DNA of 64,000 nt, taken from positions 1,178,001-1,242,000 of the forward strand of contig JAMSLZ010000001.1 of assembly GCA_026027325.1 (NCBI GenBank). Direction: 5' to 3'. The notes beneath the pieces are model-generated. The model saw nothing but the letters and a program-made list of their open reading frames with translations, was not told the DNA's origin and searched no databases. Position 1 is the first letter of the stretch, and each line of letters begins with the position of its first letter. This DNA comes from Actinomucor elegans. Its lineage: Eukaryota > Mucoromycota > Mucoromycetes > Mucorales > Mucoraceae. Below, one piece after another: positions 23,072 to 47,477 of the stretch. The position numbers and the translations under genes were made by a program.

Positions 23072-23431
23072 TTTAAATATATTTTCTAAATTAAATTTTT
23101 CAATATATACTCCATTAATTTTAACATTTATATCATGCTGATAATTATTATCTAAATTAAATTTTTATTTTCTAAGTTTTTTATTTCTTCCTTCACAATG
23201 ATAAACATTTACAACTACTTAATATTTTTAACTTTCCTAAAAAATCAAGGCATAAATATAATGTTGCCTTTTTATCCATAAATAAAATGTTGGTTACTTG
23301 TTCTATTTTAGAATAAAATTTATTTATATTATTATTTGTATTCAAAAAAATCTATTATTTCCTAATTTTTTTATATATTGTACTATTTTGAACATATTTC
23401 TGTAATACTAAATGTTCTTCTTATTAATTGA

Positions 23432-24868
23432 TTAATTATTTTCTATTGATTTCCAATAATTCAAAATAGTATCATGTGATGTAAAATCTTTTTCTTTTAC
23501 CCATGAATTATGTTCTTTACCATACTTTTTCCATTTTACAAAATATTCATATAAGTTCTTTACTTTTTTGTGTTTAATTATATATTGTATTTCATATATA
23601 TTTTGATCATTATTACTAGTGATATCTTCCTCCATTTGATCCATAATATCTATATTCACTTCATTTATATTTAAATTATTTAAAAATTGATTTTGTAATG
23701 ATTTTATATCAACGATATTTTCTATTTTATATTGTGTTTTTAATGTTACTTCTTTATTCATTTCAATATTATTTTTATAATAATAATCAAAATTATCATT
23801 TAGCCATTTGTTGTAATGGGCATTTTCTTCAATTCCAAATAACTCTGTAAAATATTTTATGTTCAGTAATACTATTGCTAATTTTAGCTGTATATTATAT
23901 GTCTTATTATCTGTTATTCTAATCTTATTTTGTCCACTAAATCTTTTAAAAATACTACCTAATTCTGCAAAATATTTTTCTATTTTTGACCTTAATCCAC
24001 CTAATTCTTCATTGAATTTTTTTTCATCTATGGTTAATTCAACTCCTTTATCTTTTTTTATAGGATAGCAAAAATTTTTCAAGGATATATTAAATCCAAT
24101 ATTACTAAATTTTTCTATAAATTCTTTTACTGTGTTTTCATATAATCCATCAAAACATATACAATCTATTTCATTATAAAACTTATTGATATTTATGTCT
24201 AAAAGCATTTTATCATCAGTATTATTTCTACAAGGTAAGGAATCAGATATATAAACACATATTCTATTAATATCTATAATAAATTGTGTATTTAATCCAT
24301 TTCTTTTTAATTTATACGAGAATAACTCTTTTTTATCTAGATTAATATCTTGATATGTTATACGATTATGGTGACCATCAATTAGTAATGTTACATTATC
24401 TAACATCATTGGATTAAATTTCTTAGCACAAAGTAATCTCAATGTATGTGTAGAAAAACATTTTTCTAATTTATTATTTATCCATTTTTCCAATAAATCA
24501 TAATTATTTATATATAATGATTGATATAATTTATAAAAACTAGTAGATGGAATATACATTTCCATTTCATTTATAGATTTTCCATTTAATAAATGTTCTA
24601 ATAATATCAATACTTTATCTGCTGTTATATATGGACCTGGTAGTTTTATATTGTTACATAAATCTGTCAAAAATACAAATGGAGCAATACTTCCTAATTT
24701 AATATATATATTTTTTTTAATTCTATCAATATTTGGTATACTCGTTATTTTAGATCTATGATATTTCAATTCAACTTTATATATATATTCATTTTTCATA
24801 AATTTCCAATACCTATTGTAAATATTTCTGTATTCATTTTCAATTAATAAGTCTATATGAGTGTTCAT
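23432..24868 (-). CDS. RDC-a DDE transposase fused to a C-terminal chromodomain
   Basis: 478 residues from the first ATG (24868); the frame extends 14 codons upstream from a TTG, but ATG is preferred. Catalytic motifs are D164 (LLIDGHHNRI), D240 (CFDGLYEN) and E297 (RSKIEKYFAELGSIFKRF), the arrangement of the IS5/Harbinger-like DDE_Tnp_4 type. Residues 424-475 form a chromodomain (YEIQYIIKHK, YFVKWKKYGKEHNSW). The protein is identical to the RDC-b copy. Superfamily placement is by motif only. The 4-bp TSD does not fit the usual 3-bp Harbinger TSD. Confidence 0.85.
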   Translation of the reverse strand: MNTHIDLLIENEYRNIYNRYWKFMKNEYIYKVELKYHRSKITSIPNIDRIKKNIYIKLGSIAPFVFLTDLCNNIKLPGPYITADKVLILLEHLLNGKSINEMEMYIPSTSFYKLYQSLYINNYDLLEKWINNKLEKCFSTHTLRLLCAKKFNPMMLDNVTLLIDGHHNRITYQDINLDKKELFSYKLKRNGLNTQFIIDINRICVYISDSLPCRNNTDDKMLLDININKFYNEIDCICFDGLYENTVKEFIEKFSNIGFNISLKNFCYPIKKDKGVELTIDEKKFNEELGGLRSKIEKYFAELGSIFKRFSGQNKIRITDNKTYNIQLKLAIVLLNIKYFTELFGIEENAHYNKWLNDNFDYYYKNNIEMNKEVTLKTQYKIENIVDIKSLQNQFLNNLNINEVNIDIMDQMEEDITSNNDQNIYEIQYIIKHKKVKNLYEYFVKWKKYGKEHNSWVKEKDFTSHDTILNYWKSIENN

Positions 24869-24958
24869 AAACAAATAAAATGATGTATTTTTATATAAAG
24901 AGAAATTCAATTTTTAATATTTTCTATATTTAATAAACTTTTATTTATATATGAAAAT

Positions 24959-25327
24959 TCAATTTTTAATATTTTCTATATTTTCCAAGAACTTATGATT
25001 TCTTTTTGCATAATCTAACCATGATTTAAAATTATAAATTTCTTTAATACTAACATATCCTTTTCTTAAACACCAGGATTTGAAATATTCATTTCTAACT
25101 TTTTCGTTATCATCTAAAATTGTTTTTATCACTAAATTGGCATGGATATTTGTATTGTTTTCACCAACATCATAGAAAGGACCACTATATAAAATTTTAT
25201 CAATATTTTTTATATTTCCAACCCATTGCAGTATTTTCTTGTTTAATATTTCGGATGATTTATTCTTGACATCTTTTTTTTCAGGATTTAGAGTTAAAAC
25301 CACAGCATAATAATAGATTTTTTCCAT
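24959..25327 (-). CDS. RDC-a small Rep-like (HUH endonuclease-like) protein
   Basis: 122 residues from ATG at 25327, upstream of the transposase on the same strand. YYYAVVLTLNPEKKD resembles motif I of rolling-circle Rep domains. GENNTNIHANLVI resembles the metal-binding motif II but has Asn for the first His. WLDYAKRNHKF resembles the Tyr motif III. Length fits a bare HUH domain without a helicase. The order and spacing support the reading, but the degenerate motif II makes it uncertain. Identical in RDC-b. Confidence 0.45.
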   Translation of the reverse strand: MEKIYYYAVVLTLNPEKKDVKNKSSEILNKKILQWVGNIKNIDKILYSGPFYDVGENNTNIHANLVIKTILDDNEKVRNEYFKSWCLRKGYVSIKEIYNFKSWLDYAKRNHKFLENIENIKN

Positions 25328-25349
25328 TAAATATAATATTGATGTTATT

Positions 25350-25562
25350 TTAAAAATAATTCTCAAATATTATAGATACTTTTATATTTTCCAAAATATC
25401 ATGCCAAGAATTAGATGCCAAGGAAGTTGTTTTTAGATTTCTCAATGTGATTAAACGCAATGGAAGTCTAAAAATAGGACAAGATAAACATTTACAACTA
25501 CTTAATATTTTTAACTTTCCTAAAAAATCAAGGCATAAATATAATGTTGCCTTTTTATCCAT
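25350..25562 (-). CDS. RDC-a possible small protein spanning the repeat boundary
   Basis: 70 residues from ATG at 25562, beginning inside the 220-bp direct repeat and continuing into the unique interior. It has a hydrophobic start and two Cys close together (CKCLSC). I recognise no family. It is kept in both RDC copies, but those are identical, so this is not evidence of selection. It may be fortuitous. Confidence 0.3.
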   Translation of the reverse strand: MDKKATLYLCLDFLGKLKILSSCKCLSCPIFRLPLRLITLRNLKTTSLASNSWHDILENIKVSIIFENYF

Positions 25563-26088
25563 AAATAAAATGTTGGTTACTTGTTCTATTTTAGAATAAA
25601 ATTTATTTATATTATTATTTGTATTCAAAAAAATCTATTATTTCCTAATTTTTTTATATATTGTACTATTTTGAACATATTTCTGTAATACTAAATGTTC
25701 TTCAATATCTATTTCTAATAAATTTTCATTATATTCATCATATGAGAAACATTTTAAATATAATTTTATTGTTATTATATATTTTTAATTAATATTTTTA
25801 TTATCTATTACTTGATATATAAAATTAAATAGTTTTAATAGAAAAAGAAAATAAAATATTGAAAATAAAGGAAAAAGTAGAATTTATGATAAAAATATGA
25901 AAAAAAGAATGATTTTAGAAATTAGTAATTGTAATTATTTAAATACTTTTTGATATATTTATTGGTCATATTAAAAGCTTAAAAAACAAAAAATGTTAAG
26001 CATTTCCCTATGAAGTGTAAAATAAAATATTATGTATTATTAGTATAAATTAAATCTGAGACCTCGTTTGGTAATCACCCCCGAACTT

Positions 26089-40430: not shown

Positions 40431-43400
40431 TTATATAGTACGAGTAGCAGCAAACCAGGCATCACCAGGATCTGGATCTGGGACGATAGCAGCAAGAGGA
40501 TGACACAGCGTGTCAATCACATAGAGAATCTCAAGGAGTGCAGACCAGAAAGGCGGTGGACCATTGGATGCTTTCAAGGGCAACAAGTTCAGGGCATGAT
40601 CAATGCGATTGACATCTGGCGGAGCAGCAGGTAATTGGCACAGAAGGCGAGGATCAATGCCACGGCAATTGAACACAAAGTGATCTCGAGAGAGCCGGCA
40701 ACCAGTGAAACAAGGACACAATTCATCACGGTTAGCGAAACGGCCTAAGCGCCATCGAACAAGACGACTGCGAGCAGCGCGAGTCATAGGCAGGTACAGT
40801 ATTGGATCAGGCTTTGAAGTAGAGGGCCGACAAGCACGCAAAAGAACCGATTTACCAGTGTGAGCAGCAGCAGCCATTTGCTTGTCAAAGAGGTCTTGCC
40901 AGTAGCCAGAGAACCAGGACTTGAGACGAGAGGCTGTAGGTACAGGATTGGGCAATGCCATATGCATAGGATTGAGGTATAGGAGCTTGTTCAATCGAGT
41001 GTAGCCAAGACCAGAAGGAGAATTGTCTCGAGAAGAGTTCAGCAATGATATCAAGCAATCATCCGGAAGCCATTGCGACCGTAGGGCATACTTGGTAACC
41101 AGGACATTGTATCGATGCTTCATGGAAGGGATACAAGTGATGTGCTTCGTGACATTGAACCATCGGGAGCCAACAAACATACCAACTAACCGGTTCTGAA
41201 GGTTATCCAAAGCAGTAAAGTCAGCAGCAGAGAGCCTAGATATAGCAAGACCGTACTCAAACTTGGGCCGAATGAAGGTAGTATATAACCGAGAACAGAG
41301 CAAGAGAGAGAAACCATTACGGTTGACACCAACCGAATTCAGTAGAGCCATGGTTTTGACTGCACCACCAGACCGTTTAGCCAGGATACCCGGACCATCA
41401 AGACCTTTCTTGTTGAATGGCATACCAAGATACGTGAACTCGTTCACTGCAGGCAGAGGAACATCATAGAGACTCAGTCTAAAGTTGGTAGACGTAGAGG
41501 AGGTCACAGAAGGAGCGTTCAGGACAGCACACTTGGTAGGGTTCCAACGATAGCCCAGTACTCTTGAATGATCAGCAGCTAAGTTCAACATATTTTGCAC
41601 CTCATGTTTGGAGCCAAAGATTGCCACATCGTCGGCAAACAGAAGACAGTTAATGGCCACAGCCTCAGCAGATCCAGGAGGAGACACTACAGCAGTAGTA
41701 TCTGAAGCTTCAGACCGAAGGAGCTCAGGCAAGGAGTTGATGTACAAAGAATACAAGTGAGGACTCAACACCGAACCTTGGAGTACACCAGTGGCAGGAG
41801 AGAAAGAGGAAGAGATGTGGTTGGCAATCAACACGGAGATGGATACATCATCAAATAGATTGACCAGCAGACCAAGGAGAGGCCGAGGCAGAGATGAATT
41901 CTCAAGAGCATTCCAGATCACACATCGATCAACAGTGTCATAGGCAGCCTTAATATCCAGAAAAGCAACAACAGGATAGTGGTGATGAACCAAGAAGTAG
42001 TTGTGCATCAGGTCGTGCAGACAGAGGGCTTGATCCAGAGGACTACGCATAGGACGGAAGCCACCTTGTGCGAGATCTAGAGAAGGCGAATGGTCATAGA
42101 CGCTTTGTGCAATGGTAATCTCAAACAACTTACGCATCACCGAAGTCAAAGAAATTGGCCTGTAGTTGGCAGGATCAGAAGCATCACCTTTCTTGAAGAT
42201 AGGAAAGACCTGGGCTTGACGCCATAGAACCGGTGTATAGCACCATTGGTAACAAACCTGGAATAGCAAAGAGAGGACAGGAGCAAGTAAATCAGCAACA
42301 GCCTTGAGCATTTCAGCTTTTAGATGATCAGGACCAGGAGCTTTGCGATTCGGCAACTGTTTGATATGCTCAACCAAGGTTTCCACCGAGAAAATCCAAG
42401 ACACTTCTTCATCAGACACCAGGAAAGGCACTTCTAAACCAAAGTCAGGAGCAGCCAGGGGACGAGAAGCAGTTGACAAAAGAGAACCATCATACACTGT
42501 AGCCAGGTGAGTAGCCATAGAATCGACTGATGCTTGAGGGCCATCAGGATGAGCATACGTAGCAGAAGTTTCTTTCCGGCGTTTCAGCCTAGACATGGTG
42601 GCAGTGGCCTTGGCAAAGTCCTTTTGGAGTGACATGCAAAAGTTCTTCCAGGAGAGTCTTTTTGCAGCAGCAACAGCACGACGAAACGACTTGTGAGCTT
42701 GCAGATGGAGATGCCAGTAATAAGCCTTGTCAACACCAAATGAATGACGCCAACGGCAATAGAGGCGATCACGTTCTCGAGCAGCAGCTTCCAGATCAGC
42801 TGTCCAGTACTTCTTCCAATGACCAGGACGGGGAGCCTTAGACCCAATGGATTCATCCATCGCCTGATAAAGACACTCATTCAGAGATGTATTGAGTGAA
42901 TCTATAGGTGGACGACTATCCGGAGGAGAACCAACCAGACCAGCAAGAGTATCCTTCAAAGGAGCAACCAGACACCGAAACCGAGTATGGAACAGAGCCA
43001 AAGGCTCAGACTCAGCCAGCCGACTGAGGTTCCATGTCCTACGAGGAGCCAGCACCGAAGAGTCACCTACACCAGAAGAGCCACCAGAAACAGCAATGTA
43101 CTTGAACCCCAACTGAAGCAGCCGATGATCAGAGCCCAAAGACAGATCGGATGCCACAGAAAGAGAAGGAGACACCATACCAGAACCACCAATGTTGGTC
43201 AAGAACAAGTCAATGATACTGCTCGCCACAGCACCATTTCTGAAGGTACAGTATGTATCAATACCATACGCCAAGGAAGCATTCAACACTGACAGATTGC
43301 GTTCTTCAATCCAAGGAAGCAGAGCTAGACCACGAGGATTTGTTGCAGAATCACCAGTAAGATCACCAAGGCGTGCATTGAAGTCACCGCAGATAATAGT

Positions 43401-43823
43401 ATCAGTGTGAAGAGGCAGTGAGTTGAGAGAAGAGAGCACCAGATCACGAGAGAGACTGGGTGGAAAGTAGACACAATGTACATTGACTTTGTCAACCTTG
43501 ATCGACAGAGTATATGCATTGTAAGACGGAAGTTGAGAGACAGTAAAAGGACAGTGAGGAGAGATGAGAGCAGTGACACCACCTGAGCCACGTCCATTGG
43601 CATTAGTGACAGTTTGACCGTACAGATGATATTGAGACCAATCGGTAGGGATCAACCCAGAGGTAAGCCAAGTTTCAGTAATCAGGAGGATATCACAAGA
43701 GAGAGCATGAGAGAGTACATCATGGATGGTAGTGACCCGAAGGCCATTGGCATTCCACAATGCAAGAGAAAAGGAGCGGACGGGGGTATCAGAAGGAGTG
43801 AAAGGAGGGACTGAAGATGTCAT
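40431..43823 (-). CDS. LINE-N ORF2: apurinic-type endonuclease and reverse transcriptase
   Basis: 1130 residues from ATG at 43823. An N-terminal APE-like endonuclease (about 15-245) has LALWNANGL, LLITETWL, ICGDFNARLGD and GSDHRLLQLGF. The reverse transcriptase (about 440-800) has FPIFKKGDASDPANYRPISL, GVLQGSVLSPHLYSLYIN and the catalytic FADD near 732. A CCHC knuckle lies near 1034 (CPCFTGCRLSRDHFVFNC). No stop or frameshift is seen. The endonuclease presumably nicks the tRNA gene to prime reverse transcription (family knowledge). The ATG shares a base with the ORF1 stop. Confidence 0.95.
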   Translation of the reverse strand: MTSSVPPFTPSDTPVRSFSLALWNANGLRVTTIHDVLSHALSCDILLITETWLTSGLIPTDWSQYHLYGQTVTNANGRGSGGVTALISPHCPFTVSQLPSYNAYTLSIKVDKVNVHCVYFPPSLSRDLVLSSLNSLPLHTDTIICGDFNARLGDLTGDSATNPRGLALLPWIEERNLSVLNASLAYGIDTYCTFRNGAVASSIIDLFLTNIGGSGMVSPSLSVASDLSLGSDHRLLQLGFKYIAVSGGSSGVGDSSVLAPRRTWNLSRLAESEPLALFHTRFRCLVAPLKDTLAGLVGSPPDSRPPIDSLNTSLNECLYQAMDESIGSKAPRPGHWKKYWTADLEAAARERDRLYCRWRHSFGVDKAYYWHLHLQAHKSFRRAVAAAKRLSWKNFCMSLQKDFAKATATMSRLKRRKETSATYAHPDGPQASVDSMATHLATVYDGSLLSTASRPLAAPDFGLEVPFLVSDEEVSWIFSVETLVEHIKQLPNRKAPGPDHLKAEMLKAVADLLAPVLSLLFQVCYQWCYTPVLWRQAQVFPIFKKGDASDPANYRPISLTSVMRKLFEITIAQSVYDHSPSLDLAQGGFRPMRSPLDQALCLHDLMHNYFLVHHHYPVVAFLDIKAAYDTVDRCVIWNALENSSLPRPLLGLLVNLFDDVSISVLIANHISSSFSPATGVLQGSVLSPHLYSLYINSLPELLRSEASDTTAVVSPPGSAEAVAINCLLFADDVAIFGSKHEVQNMLNLAADHSRVLGYRWNPTKCAVLNAPSVTSSTSTNFRLSLYDVPLPAVNEFTYLGMPFNKKGLDGPGILAKRSGGAVKTMALLNSVGVNRNGFSLLLCSRLYTTFIRPKFEYGLAISRLSAADFTALDNLQNRLVGMFVGSRWFNVTKHITCIPSMKHRYNVLVTKYALRSQWLPDDCLISLLNSSRDNSPSGLGYTRLNKLLYLNPMHMALPNPVPTASRLKSWFSGYWQDLFDKQMAAAAHTGKSVLLRACRPSTSKPDPILYLPMTRAARSRLVRWRLGRFANRDELCPCFTGCRLSRDHFVFNCRGIDPRLLCQLPAAPPDVNRIDHALNLLPLKASNGPPPFWSALLEILYVIDTLCHPLAAIVPDPDPGDAWFAATRTI

Positions 43824-44025
43824 TATTGTGACATTTCAGTATCGCTATCACCGGTAACGTCTTCACCAGATGGCAAAGCACCAGAACTACGGAATGCAAA
43901 AGCAGCCTTCTTGGGATCCTTTTCGGCAAGACGAGAGCGAGCTTCCTTAATGGCTTGATCAAGATCACCATCATCAATCCATCCAAGTTCCACAAAGGAG
44001 CGACCAACAGAAGGGACCATCACTG

Positions 44026-44245
44026 AAGAACATTTAGTATTACAGAAATATGTTCAAAATAGTACAATATATAAAAAAATTAGGAAATAATAGATTTTTT
44101 TGAATACAAATAATAATATAAATAAATTTTATTCTAAAATAGAACAAGTAACCAACATTTTATTTATGGATAAAAAGGCAACATTATATTTATGCCTTGA
44201 TTTTTTAGGAAAGTTAAAAATATTAAGTAGTTGTAAATGTTTATC
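44026..44245 (+). repeat. RDC-b left 220-bp terminal direct repeat
   Basis: AAGAACATTTAG...AAATGTTTATC. It lacks the TG...CA ends of an LTR; its own tips are weakly inverted. Partner at 46309-46528. Confidence 0.92.
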
Positions 44246-44378
44246 TTGTCCTATTTTTAGACTTCCATTGCGTTTAATCACATTGAGAAATCTAAAAACA
44301 ACTTCCTTGGCATCTAATTCTTGGCATGATATTTTGGAAAATATAAAAGTATCTATAATATTTGAGAATTATTTTTAA
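44166..44378 (+). CDS. RDC-b possible small protein spanning the repeat boundary
   Basis: 70 residues from ATG at 44166, identical to the RDC-a counterpart (25350-25562). It starts in the left direct repeat. The right repeat therefore contains a truncated copy of its start. Unknown, possibly not a gene. Confidence 0.3.
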   Translation: MDKKATLYLCLDFLGKLKILSSCKCLSCPIFRLPLRLITLRNLKTTSLASNSWHDILENIKVSIIFENYF

Positions 44379-44400
44379 AATAACATCAATATTATATTTA

Positions 44401-44769
44401 ATGGAAAAAATCTATTATTATGCTGTGGTTTTAACTCTAAATCCTGAAAAAAAAGATGTCAAGAATAAATCATCCGAAATATTAAACAAGAAAATACTGC
44501 AATGGGTTGGAAATATAAAAAATATTGATAAAATTTTATATAGTGGTCCTTTCTATGATGTTGGTGAAAACAATACAAATATCCATGCCAATTTAGTGAT
44601 AAAAACAATTTTAGATGATAACGAAAAAGTTAGAAATGAATATTTCAAATCCTGGTGTTTAAGAAAAGGATATGTTAGTATTAAAGAAATTTATAATTTT
44701 AAATCATGGTTAGATTATGCAAAAAGAAATCATAAGTTCTTGGAAAATATAGAAAATATTAAAAATTGA
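44401..44769 (+). CDS. RDC-b small Rep-like (HUH endonuclease-like) protein
   Basis: 122 residues from ATG. Motif I-like TLNP at residues 12-15, motif II-like NIH at 60-62, Tyr motif-like WLDYAK at 103-108. Same as in RDC-a. The TTG-initiated extension upstream is not favoured. It lies 90 bp upstream of the transposase ATG, on the same strand. The HUH reading is an inference from motif order. Confidence 0.45.
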   Translation: MEKIYYYAVVLTLNPEKKDVKNKSSEILNKKILQWVGNIKNIDKILYSGPFYDVGENNTNIHANLVIKTILDDNEKVRNEYFKSWCLRKGYVSIKEIYNFKSWLDYAKRNHKFLENIENIKN

Positions 44770-44859
44770 ATTTTCATATATAAATAAAAGTTTATTAAAT
44801 ATAGAAAATATTAAAAATTGAATTTCTCTTTATATAAAAATACATCATTTTATTTGTTT

Positions 44860-46296
44860 ATGAACACTCATATAGACTTATTAATTGAAAATGAATACAG
44901 AAATATTTACAATAGGTATTGGAAATTTATGAAAAATGAATATATATATAAAGTTGAATTGAAATATCATAGATCTAAAATAACGAGTATACCAAATATT
45001 GATAGAATTAAAAAAAATATATATATTAAATTAGGAAGTATTGCTCCATTTGTATTTTTGACAGATTTATGTAACAATATAAAACTACCAGGTCCATATA
45101 TAACAGCAGATAAAGTATTGATATTATTAGAACATTTATTAAATGGAAAATCTATAAATGAAATGGAAATGTATATTCCATCTACTAGTTTTTATAAATT
45201 ATATCAATCATTATATATAAATAATTATGATTTATTGGAAAAATGGATAAATAATAAATTAGAAAAATGTTTTTCTACACATACATTGAGATTACTTTGT
45301 GCTAAGAAATTTAATCCAATGATGTTAGATAATGTAACATTACTAATTGATGGTCACCATAATCGTATAACATATCAAGATATTAATCTAGATAAAAAAG
45401 AGTTATTCTCGTATAAATTAAAAAGAAATGGATTAAATACACAATTTATTATAGATATTAATAGAATATGTGTTTATATATCTGATTCCTTACCTTGTAG
45501 AAATAATACTGATGATAAAATGCTTTTAGACATAAATATCAATAAGTTTTATAATGAAATAGATTGTATATGTTTTGATGGATTATATGAAAACACAGTA
45601 AAAGAATTTATAGAAAAATTTAGTAATATTGGATTTAATATATCCTTGAAAAATTTTTGCTATCCTATAAAAAAAGATAAAGGAGTTGAATTAACCATAG
45701 ATGAAAAAAAATTCAATGAAGAATTAGGTGGATTAAGGTCAAAAATAGAAAAATATTTTGCAGAATTAGGTAGTATTTTTAAAAGATTTAGTGGACAAAA
45801 TAAGATTAGAATAACAGATAATAAGACATATAATATACAGCTAAAATTAGCAATAGTATTACTGAACATAAAATATTTTACAGAGTTATTTGGAATTGAA
45901 GAAAATGCCCATTACAACAAATGGCTAAATGATAATTTTGATTATTATTATAAAAATAATATTGAAATGAATAAAGAAGTAACATTAAAAACACAATATA
46001 AAATAGAAAATATCGTTGATATAAAATCATTACAAAATCAATTTTTAAATAATTTAAATATAAATGAAGTGAATATAGATATTATGGATCAAATGGAGGA
46101 AGATATCACTAGTAATAATGATCAAAATATATATGAAATACAATATATAATTAAACACAAAAAAGTAAAGAACTTATATGAATATTTTGTAAAATGGAAA
46201 AAGTATGGTAAAGAACATAATTCATGGGTAAAAGAAAAAGATTTTACATCACATGATACTATTTTGAATTATTGGAAATCAATAGAAAATAATTAA
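44860..46296 (+). CDS. RDC-b DDE transposase with C-terminal chromodomain
   Basis: 478 residues from ATG. Triad D164, D240, E297 and chromodomain 424-475, identical to RDC-a. No break is seen. The stop lies 12 bp before the right direct repeat. Proteins rich in Lys, Asn and Ile reflect the element's strong AT bias, unlike the surrounding LINE. Confidence 0.86.
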   Translation: MNTHIDLLIENEYRNIYNRYWKFMKNEYIYKVELKYHRSKITSIPNIDRIKKNIYIKLGSIAPFVFLTDLCNNIKLPGPYITADKVLILLEHLLNGKSINEMEMYIPSTSFYKLYQSLYINNYDLLEKWINNKLEKCFSTHTLRLLCAKKFNPMMLDNVTLLIDGHHNRITYQDINLDKKELFSYKLKRNGLNTQFIIDINRICVYISDSLPCRNNTDDKMLLDININKFYNEIDCICFDGLYENTVKEFIEKFSNIGFNISLKNFCYPIKKDKGVELTIDEKKFNEELGGLRSKIEKYFAELGSIFKRFSGQNKIRITDNKTYNIQLKLAIVLLNIKYFTELFGIEENAHYNKWLNDNFDYYYKNNIEMNKEVTLKTQYKIENIVDIKSLQNQFLNNLNINEVNIDIMDQMEEDITSNNDQNIYEIQYIIKHKKVKNLYEYFVKWKKYGKEHNSWVKEKDFTSHDTILNYWKSIENN

Positions 46297-46308
46297 TCAA
46301 TTAATAAG

Positions 46309-46528
46309 AAGAACATTTAGTATTACAGAAATATGTTCAAAATAGTACAATATATAAAAAAATTAGGAAATAATAGATTTTTTTGAATACAAATAATAAT
46401 ATAAATAAATTTTATTCTAAAATAGAACAAGTAACCAACATTTTATTTATGGATAAAAAGGCAACATTATATTTATGCCTTGATTTTTTAGGAAAGTTAA
46501 AAATATTAAGTAGTTGTAAATGTTTATC
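46309..46528 (+). repeat. RDC-b right 220-bp terminal direct repeat
   Basis: Copy of 44026-44245, ending ...GTAAATGTTTATC next to the TSD ACTG. Confidence 0.92.
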
Positions 46529-47477
46529 ACTGGTCGAATGAACGCCAGAGTGCTGATACAGCGAGAGTGAACGAGGTTAGCCATCTCGTTTTCACGAGCA
46601 TTGGCTGAGAGAGAAGCATACTTGGGGTCAGCAAGATGGGCTGGGTTTAAAGGATCAAAATCCTTAATGAACTCAGCTTCAGCCGTAGTCATAAGCTCGG
46701 TAAACTTTTCAACATACTGCGTATGTATCAGGACACCAAGGACACCAGTAGCAGGGAAACAGACATCTAACACACGACCAGTGTCAACACCAGCGCGACG
46801 TAACCGAGAGCGGACTTCAGTACGATCAAGTTTGCGAGATCGACCAAGATAAACATAGGTAAAACCCTGAGGACCCTGGGCCTCAAGGGTTTTGAAGGCG
46901 CGAGCAGCGGCTATACGTTTCTTTAGGGAAACGGCAGCAGGGCGAGAGGGGCGGCTGTCCTTTTTTACAGCGGCTGCAGCAATGGCAGCGAAAGACCGGG
47001 CACCATTTTTTTCCTGGGCGGGAGAAGCGACATCCTGCGGTGGACTACGAGCGGTGGCAGCAGAGAGTTGTGCTCGAAGTTGGTTATTTTCATTAACCAG
47101 AGCCTGGTTTTCGGTTTTGAGTCCAAGAATCTCATTTTTCAAGGTCTGGAGCTCTTCAAATAATGTTTGATGTTGTTGCACTTGCTGAACAAGTGAAAAC
47201 ACCATTTGCTGTAGCTGCTGGAACTGCATTGGCTGTTGCATTTGGTCCATTGAGCCAGATGGCTCAGATGCATGTTGAACATTGGACATTTCGAAATGGA
47301 GAAAAATTCAAGATGTCGAAAACTTGATGGAATGTTCTGAAAAAAAAACTGCAGATAGTACTTGGCGAGGCGAAGATGGATGTGCAATTTTTATAGATGG
47401 ATGTATTGTAGTTGTTGAGATATTCGGCTTTGAAAAAGTGGATTTTTGAAAAAAGTTTTCAAAAGCGAAAGAAGAGT

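Follow-up and report, generated by a model that had tools for sequence, protein, structure and literature searches.

RDC-1, a probably undescribed chromodomain transposon with long terminal direct repeats and a putative Rep-like gene in the fungus Actinomucor elegans

Results

We analysed a 64,000-nucleotide window of the genome of Actinomucor elegans (Mucorales; GenBank assembly GCA_026027325.1, contig JAMSLZ010000001.1, positions 1,178,001 to 1,242,000 of the forward strand), which carries two copies of a transposable element that we call RDC-1. Copy 1 occupies positions 44025..46528 of the window on the plus strand and copy 2 positions 23200..25703 on the minus strand. Pairwise comparison of 44026-46528 (+) with 23200-25702 (-) shows zero base differences in 2,503 bp, and each copy begins and ends with an exact direct repeat of 220 bp. 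An earlier interpretation made from the letters of the window (hereafter the sequence-only reading) had taken the two as one mobile unit, and their identity between differing target site duplications (TSDs) bears this out. It had also assigned them 4-bp TSDs (ACTG and CAAT), which we reject. A G precedes the repeat in all listed left flanks and likewise at the internal right repeat of RDC-1, so this base belongs to the element, which is therefore 2,504 bp long with a 221-bp repeat and a 3-bp TSD. Copies with a base other than G after the right TSD reveal the same length directly (ATT/ATTa, AGT/AGTc, TAT/TATa). Copy 1 is thus flanked by ACT (left, 44022..44024; right, 46529..46531; plus strand) and copy 2 by ATT in element orientation (left, 25704..25706; right, 23197..23199; minus strand).

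Each direct repeat is itself bounded by inverted ends. The left long terminal direct repeat (LTDR; 44025..44245, +) and the identical right LTDR (46308..46528, +) are both 221 bp long and begin and end with an imperfect 12-bp terminal inverted repeat (TIR), GAAGAACATTTA / GATAAACATTTA, which matches at 10/12 positions and in the left LTDR lies at 44025-44036 and 44234-44245. The sequence-only reading was therefore right that RDC-1 has direct repeats, one base short on their length, and mistaken in holding that they take the place of inverted ends.

Between the LTDRs lie two genes on the plus strand. The downstream one (P0002, 44860..46296) encodes a 478-amino-acid (aa) transposase with a DDE_Tnp_4 domain at aa 163-336 (E = 1.9e-8) and a chromodomain at aa 425-473 (E = 8.7e-8), as previously proposed; both Pfam matches exceed their gathering scores. 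We propose D164, D240 and E297, chosen by eye from motif positions, as candidates for the catalytic triad. The upstream gene (P0001, 44401..44769) encodes a 122-aa Rep-like protein, putatively of the HUH class (HUN variant), with D53, H62, N64 and Y106 as its key residues. A DDE_Tnp_4 transposase together with 3-bp TSDs fits PIF/Harbinger elements, and these sequence features point to a PIF/Harbinger-like lineage. According to the accessible text on that superfamily (PMC2572040), its members have 3-bp TSDs, inverted ends and an IS5-like transposase; RDC-1 shares DDE_Tnp_4, the TSD length and TIRs, but differs in its long direct terminal repeats, the shortness (12 bp) of its TIRs and its C-terminal chromodomain.

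RDC-1 is abundant and was recently active. In the whole genome (36.5 Mb, 27 contigs), exact searches with the end motifs of the repeat returned 97 left and 94 right ends, compared with 0 for reversed-pattern controls. The transposase gave 90 matches (26 full length at 100% identity) and the 122-aa protein 62 (38 full length at 100% identity), and so many identical copies indicate a recent burst. We assembled 51 RDC-1 insertions with both ends from the transposase, 122-aa and end-motif searches, leaving aside three single LTDRs that lack the right end (L056, L061 and L063) along with no fewer than five loci that are partial or nested (C4:4189, C4:15950, C21:322903, C21:333679 and C22:72183). 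A 3-bp TSD flanks 45/51, comprising 33/37 insertions that contain an internal region plus 12/14 solo LTDRs, the solo units whose existence the sequence-only reading had proposed to check. The exceptions are two solo repeats (C7:31k and C22:2148k) and four insertions with an internal region (C1:3043k, C12:3681k, C12:3695k and C8:46k); flanks of the TSD-less C12 copies match one another or an adjacent copy, a recombination-like pattern. Two pairs among the 51 have common flanks, apparently through segmental duplication, and the distinct TSD-bearing flank pairs number 43. These 43 sites show a target bias toward C-A-N-T-G (C at -1, 53%; A at the first TSD position, 63%; T at the third, 67%; G at +1, 77%), against a comparison level in RDC-1 flanks of 19% for C and 19% for G. 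One insertion, on C22, is a dimer of the form (LTDR-INT)2-LTDR (INT, internal region) with a single TSD pair (AGT).

Three further observations concern individual insertions. Copy 1 sits inside a GC-rich long interspersed nuclear element (40431-43823 and 46529-47289) with a 1,130-aa open reading frame (ORF) that by eye resembles an endonuclease/reverse transcriptase, and it splits that element's ORF1; the uninterrupted version of the insertion site occurs at 25 places elsewhere in the genome. Two other copies (C12:3681538-3690211 and C21:685085-693758) have a repeat spacing of 8,454 instead of 2,283, each holding an insertion of the same size at a different point in the transposase gene, perhaps one unrelated 6.2-kb transposon. 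Finally, at L050 (C21:327500-334500) an element of a related family, R42, with both Rep-like and transposase genes, is apparently nested within an RDC-1 copy (TSD ATA).

Solo repeats, an outline like that of long terminal repeat (LTR) elements and a chromodomain, which chromoviruses also carry, might suggest an LTR-retrotransposon remnant, or else an assembly artefact. We regard either as extremely improbable, since no reverse transcriptase was found in the three ORFs scanned (44166-44378, 44401-44769 and 44860-46296), the LTDRs run from GA to TC with TIRs, and the many copies have varied flanks with TSDs.

Long terminal direct repeats characterize a whole set of related families. From genome searches we retrieved one or more copies of each family with a transposase 35-66% identical to that of RDC-1. 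Direct repeats are present in 10/11 families examined, with approximate lengths, which may include a few flank bases, of 221 bp in RDC-1, 260 in F66, 263 in F59, 403 in F49, 221 in F51, 239 and 223 in the two F47 families, 293 in F43, 234 in R71 and 289 in R42. In every direct-repeat family the LTDR starts with 5'-GA, ends with TC-3' and has inverted ends of its own, and once the ends are placed at GA/TC, 3-bp TSDs can be read by eye in the flanks (by script, in 9/11 F49 insertions and 5/5 R71 insertions). R71 also has a dimer, (LTDR-INT)2-LTDR at L046, with one TSD pair (TAT). With ten such families and the 97 and 94 end motifs of RDC-1, we reject the idea, considered in the sequence-only reading, that the repeat is an accidental duplication private to two copies; it is a real, family-wide trait. 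DDE_Tnp_4 scores above cutoff in 6/8 further families scanned (F35, F43, F49, F47a, R42 and F51), while F47b falls below by little and the first F66 ORF fragment by far. The transposase frames read in F66 and F59 are broken or cut, R71 retains only a remnant, and the 422-aa ORF of R42 has no chromodomain.

The most distant family, F35, has 282-bp terminal units in inverted orientation, each with its own 67-bp inverted ends, and may connect the inverted with the direct arrangement of such units. A TSD (AGT) flanks the copy at L044, whereas the F35 dimer in L045 has outer flanks that mismatch. These loci (L044, C12:3656-3662k; L045, C21:2356-2366k) encode a 469-aa DDE_Tnp_4/chromodomain transposase and a 556-aa protein; the latter has no Pfam, PHROG or PDB match and no relative in viral_contigs or plasmids.

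The two repeats of a copy stay alike as families diverge. Within a copy, left and right repeats differ only by 1-2-base gaps in the seven families aligned; in F59 the two differ by one substitution and in F66 by one gap. In the one between-family pair aligned, RDC-1 and R71, the repeats are 57% identical. Two F49 subtypes are separated by four substitutions, and both repeats agree at all four in 11/11 copies (3 + 8). Left and right repeats of one copy thus evolve together. These observations bear on whether solo LTDRs could be the true transposons, MITE-like (resembling miniature inverted-repeat transposable elements), with full elements arising as chance composites of two adjacent insertions in the manner of bacterial composite transposons. 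Each LTDR does contain both transposon ends, and 12/14 intact solo LTDRs have 3-bp TSDs. We nevertheless consider this explanation very unlikely, because families with transposases only ~40-66% identical to that of RDC-1 repeat the layout, the left and right LTDRs of a copy match, and 10/11 families have their units in direct orientation.

The 122-aa protein resembles HUH-type Rep proteins in predicted fold, and its conserved residues may correspond to theirs. D53, H62, N64 and Y106 are invariant across 21 sequences with identity down to 37%. An AlphaFold2 model (predicted local distance difference test score, 86.9) has the element order beta-alpha-beta-beta-alpha-beta-alpha of the Rep fold, which other ferredoxin-like proteins also have, and would place D53, H62-x-N64 and Y106, by topology and spacing, like the metal triad and Tyr91 of circovirus Rep, with N as second ligand. 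In the accessible account of the duck circovirus Rep, the triad is Glu44, His52 and Gln54 and the catalytic residue Tyr91 (PMC9973303). Sequence comparison gave no significant match beyond the protein's own family: the best profile, PF23343, had E = 0.01, below cutoff; the hhalign match to the plasmid Viral_Rep protein p4M RepA (PF02407) was not significant (0.3%); a PDB profile search found no match; and no relative was found in viral_contigs, plasmids or phages. The model also compares with S6/ACT/Lrp (ferredoxin-like) folds at Z equal to or higher than for Rep. The Rep-like assignment of the sequence-only reading is thus backed by a predicted fold compatible with HUH proteins and by the invariant D/H/N/Y, and the protein fits an HUH-type Rep on these grounds, not by significance of sequence match.

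The Rep-like gene has a restricted distribution. It occurs in three families (RDC-1, R71 and R42), while seven direct-repeat families have no recognisable Rep. Rep is therefore not the origin of the layout, contrary to the sequence-only reading, which had suggested that a circular or rolling-circle stage would explain the repeats. A transposase tree of 22 rows, all from this lineage, does not unite the Rep carriers RDC-1 and R42. R42 joins F35 there on a long branch, however, a placement that the program flags as unsure, so that the tree is compatible with either loss or exchange of Rep. Among 70 transposase relatives the sole organism named is Mucor flavus (2/70 rows), which suggests a Mucoromycotina host, and the transposase has no relative in viral_contigs. 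All 17 R71-type Rep matches contain an in-frame stop (16 at 70% identity, one at 67%), and in six copies that we read (two in L046, plus L047, L048, L049 and L052) the frame is 100 aa long and falls short of the Tyr motif, which a metagenomic relative (P0079) reads through. The R71 copies at L046-L048 and L052 also hold an opposite-strand transposase remnant of 167-193 aa. As a speculation, the RDC-1 Rep and another transposase may act in trans to mobilise R71.

The Rep-bearing families have a stem-loop in their LTDRs. In RDC-1 it has the form AAGGCA-ACATTATATTTA-TGCCTT (left LTDR, 44175..44198; identical in the right LTDR, 46458..46481; both +), 47 bp from the right end of the repeat, and could serve as a recognition or nick site for Rep. 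The R71 hairpin, AAAACA-ACATTATATTTA-TGTTTT, lies 46 bp short of the end of the stretch analysed and has an identical 12-nt loop, with two stem base pairs altered compensatorily; R42 has GAAGGT-AAGCAAAGTGCA-ACCTTC at 78 bp. When one LTDR per family was compared (11 in total), such a hairpin was found in all three Rep-bearing families, and no hairpin with a 6-bp stem (at least one G/C) and a 12-nt loop was found in the repeats of the other eight (seven direct, and F35 inverted). The 16-base word common to the RDC-1 and R71 repeats was attained by 3/2,000 shuffles. Two points limit this comparison: a lone repeat yields one in 7-17% of Markov shuffles, so that R42 on its own is weak, and the comparison was post hoc, with the G/C minimum of the stem lowered from two to one after R71 had been missed. 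The identical loop with compensatory stems is a stronger point than the R42 hairpin. We rejected a circovirus-like nonanucleotide, TAGTATTAC (LTDR position 11), as an origin: it is present in RDC-1 and absent from R71 and R42, and the occurrence of TAATATTAC in two Rep-less LTDRs undercuts it further. In the RDC-1 repeat (44150-44198) the stem-loop is preceded, 26 bp upstream, by a second and degenerate copy of itself, which by eye apparently exists in R71 too, and in one solo repeat (L058, C4:57.8k) the upstream copy too is an exact match to the conserved 16-mer.

Discussion

We interpret RDC-1 as an LTDR-type, PIF/Harbinger-like (IS5-type, DDE_Tnp_4) transposon with an optional Rep-like nickase, a reading to which we assign a probability of roughly 60%. 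The element has the composite-like layout LTDR-INT-LTDR, and each of its 221-bp LTDRs forms a small cassette bounded by a left and a right inverted end. The chromodomain transposase would join the outermost ends to a target of about C-ANT-G and so generate the 3-bp TSDs; the ends and TSDs are observed, and the catalysis is what we infer. An LTDR-INT circle may form. The 122-aa HUH-like protein, where present (three families), would most likely nick the LTDR stem-loop and thereby start copying or recombination of LTDR-INT, and the DDE enzyme would re-insert LTDR-INT-LTDR out of a dimer or concatemer. A rolling-circle stage is possible, and a role for Rep in the three families that carry it is plausible. 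The fuller version, in which two unrelated transposition chemistries are coupled, an HUN-variant Rep nicking the stem-loop and amplifying the element by rolling circle and the DDE transposase excising terminally redundant units from the concatemer and placing them in chromatin, we consider doubtful.

The 122-aa protein could instead be a ferredoxin-like DNA-binding or regulatory accessory of an LTDR-type Harbinger, with LTDR identity, solos and dimers all produced by host recombination. Classical Harbingers have a Myb/SANT partner protein, whereas no Myb-type second protein is seen in RDC-1. Absence of a significant Rep-family match, the equal or higher Z for S6/ACT/Lrp folds and retention of LTDRs in seven families that lack the protein all agree with an accessory role. 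Yet D53, H62, N64 and Y106 do not vary among the 21 sequences, on the model they would fall at the places of the circovirus metal triad and Tyr91, and the stem-loop tracks the Rep gene, so that we think this alternative rather unlikely.

Another possibility, a stronger version of the sequence-only reading, makes LTDR-INT an autonomous, Rep-driven rolling-circle episome, of which the DDE enzyme merely integrates terminally redundant linear concatemer pieces. Terminal redundancy, left-right LTDR identity and dimers with a single TSD pair would follow naturally, and the Rep-like fold and conserved stem-loop are in keeping with it. However, the same redundancy exists in seven Rep-less families, no helicase-like gene was found among the three RDC-1 ORFs scanned, no circle was seen, and every R71-type Rep match (17/17) is interrupted by a stop; we regard such a replicon as distinctly unlikely. 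The 122-aa protein can also be compared with the Rep of CRESS-DNA (circular Rep-encoding single-stranded DNA) viruses. In the accessible text on these proteins (PMC9973303), as in the predicted fold of the 122-aa protein, the elements follow the same order, an acidic residue, H-x-N and Tyr would take the places of E44, H52-x-Q54 and Y91, and a stem-loop lies in nearby DNA. The 122-aa protein differs from CRESS Rep in lacking significant similarity, in having N as second ligand, in standing alone without a helicase and in residing on a DDE transposon. Helitrons and Replitrons are eukaryotic transposons with an HUH protein, which serves as their transposase; unlike them, RDC-1 has a DDE transposase and DDE-type TSDs.

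The closest counterpart to the RDC-1 lineage is in animals. For its LTDRs, of ~450 or 660 bp, Kojima and Bao (2022, PMC9587614) called the DNA transposon KolobokP 'unlike any other DNA transposons'. As far as the accessible text of that paper goes, KolobokP shares with the RDC-1 lineage the LTDR-INT-LTDR layout with short TIRs within each LTDR, a DDE transposase accompanied by a small accessory protein (a nuclease in KolobokP), frequent solo LTDRs, and (LTDR-INT)n-LTDR multimers with outer TSDs; its authors propose repeat recombination, circles and nuclease-induced unequal crossover. It differs in having a Kolobok transposase and a His-Me homing endonuclease, whereas the RDC-1 lineage has DDE_Tnp_4 with a chromodomain, 3-bp TSDs, LTDRs of ~220-400 bp, a Rep-like accessory in some families only, and a fungal host. 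DDE_Tnp_4 and Chromo are the sole significant Pfam domains, which gives no indication of a Kolobok-type transposase, though Kolobok proteins were not compared directly, and no His-Me finger homing endonuclease domain was found in the scanned ORFs of RDC-1 and its relatives.

RDC-1 is a real and probably undescribed element of LTDR type. In the literature searched, with limited coverage of subscription papers and Repbase, KolobokP was the only LTDR DNA transposon, and we found neither an element combining HUH/Rep with DDE or Harbinger features nor a Harbinger with a chromodomain in Mucor. In the accessible text of a 2025 paper on fungal transposons (PMC12730594), 'chromodomain' and 'KolobokP' do not occur, HUH is mentioned for Helitrons only, and 'direct repeats' is used once, to deny them at the borders of a gene.

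A second LTDR lineage, with another type of transposase, in what appears to be another kingdom and with some of its families again having a small nuclease-like partner, would imply that this layout evolved repeatedly. RDC-1, with 26 identical full-length transposase genes, offers a compact and recently active system for testing LTDR function. If the 122-aa protein does nick the LTDR, RDC-1 would be an HUH/DDE hybrid with a mechanism not found in the literature searched; and if the two chemistries are indeed coupled, it would be a DNA-only counterpart of a retrovirus-like life cycle.
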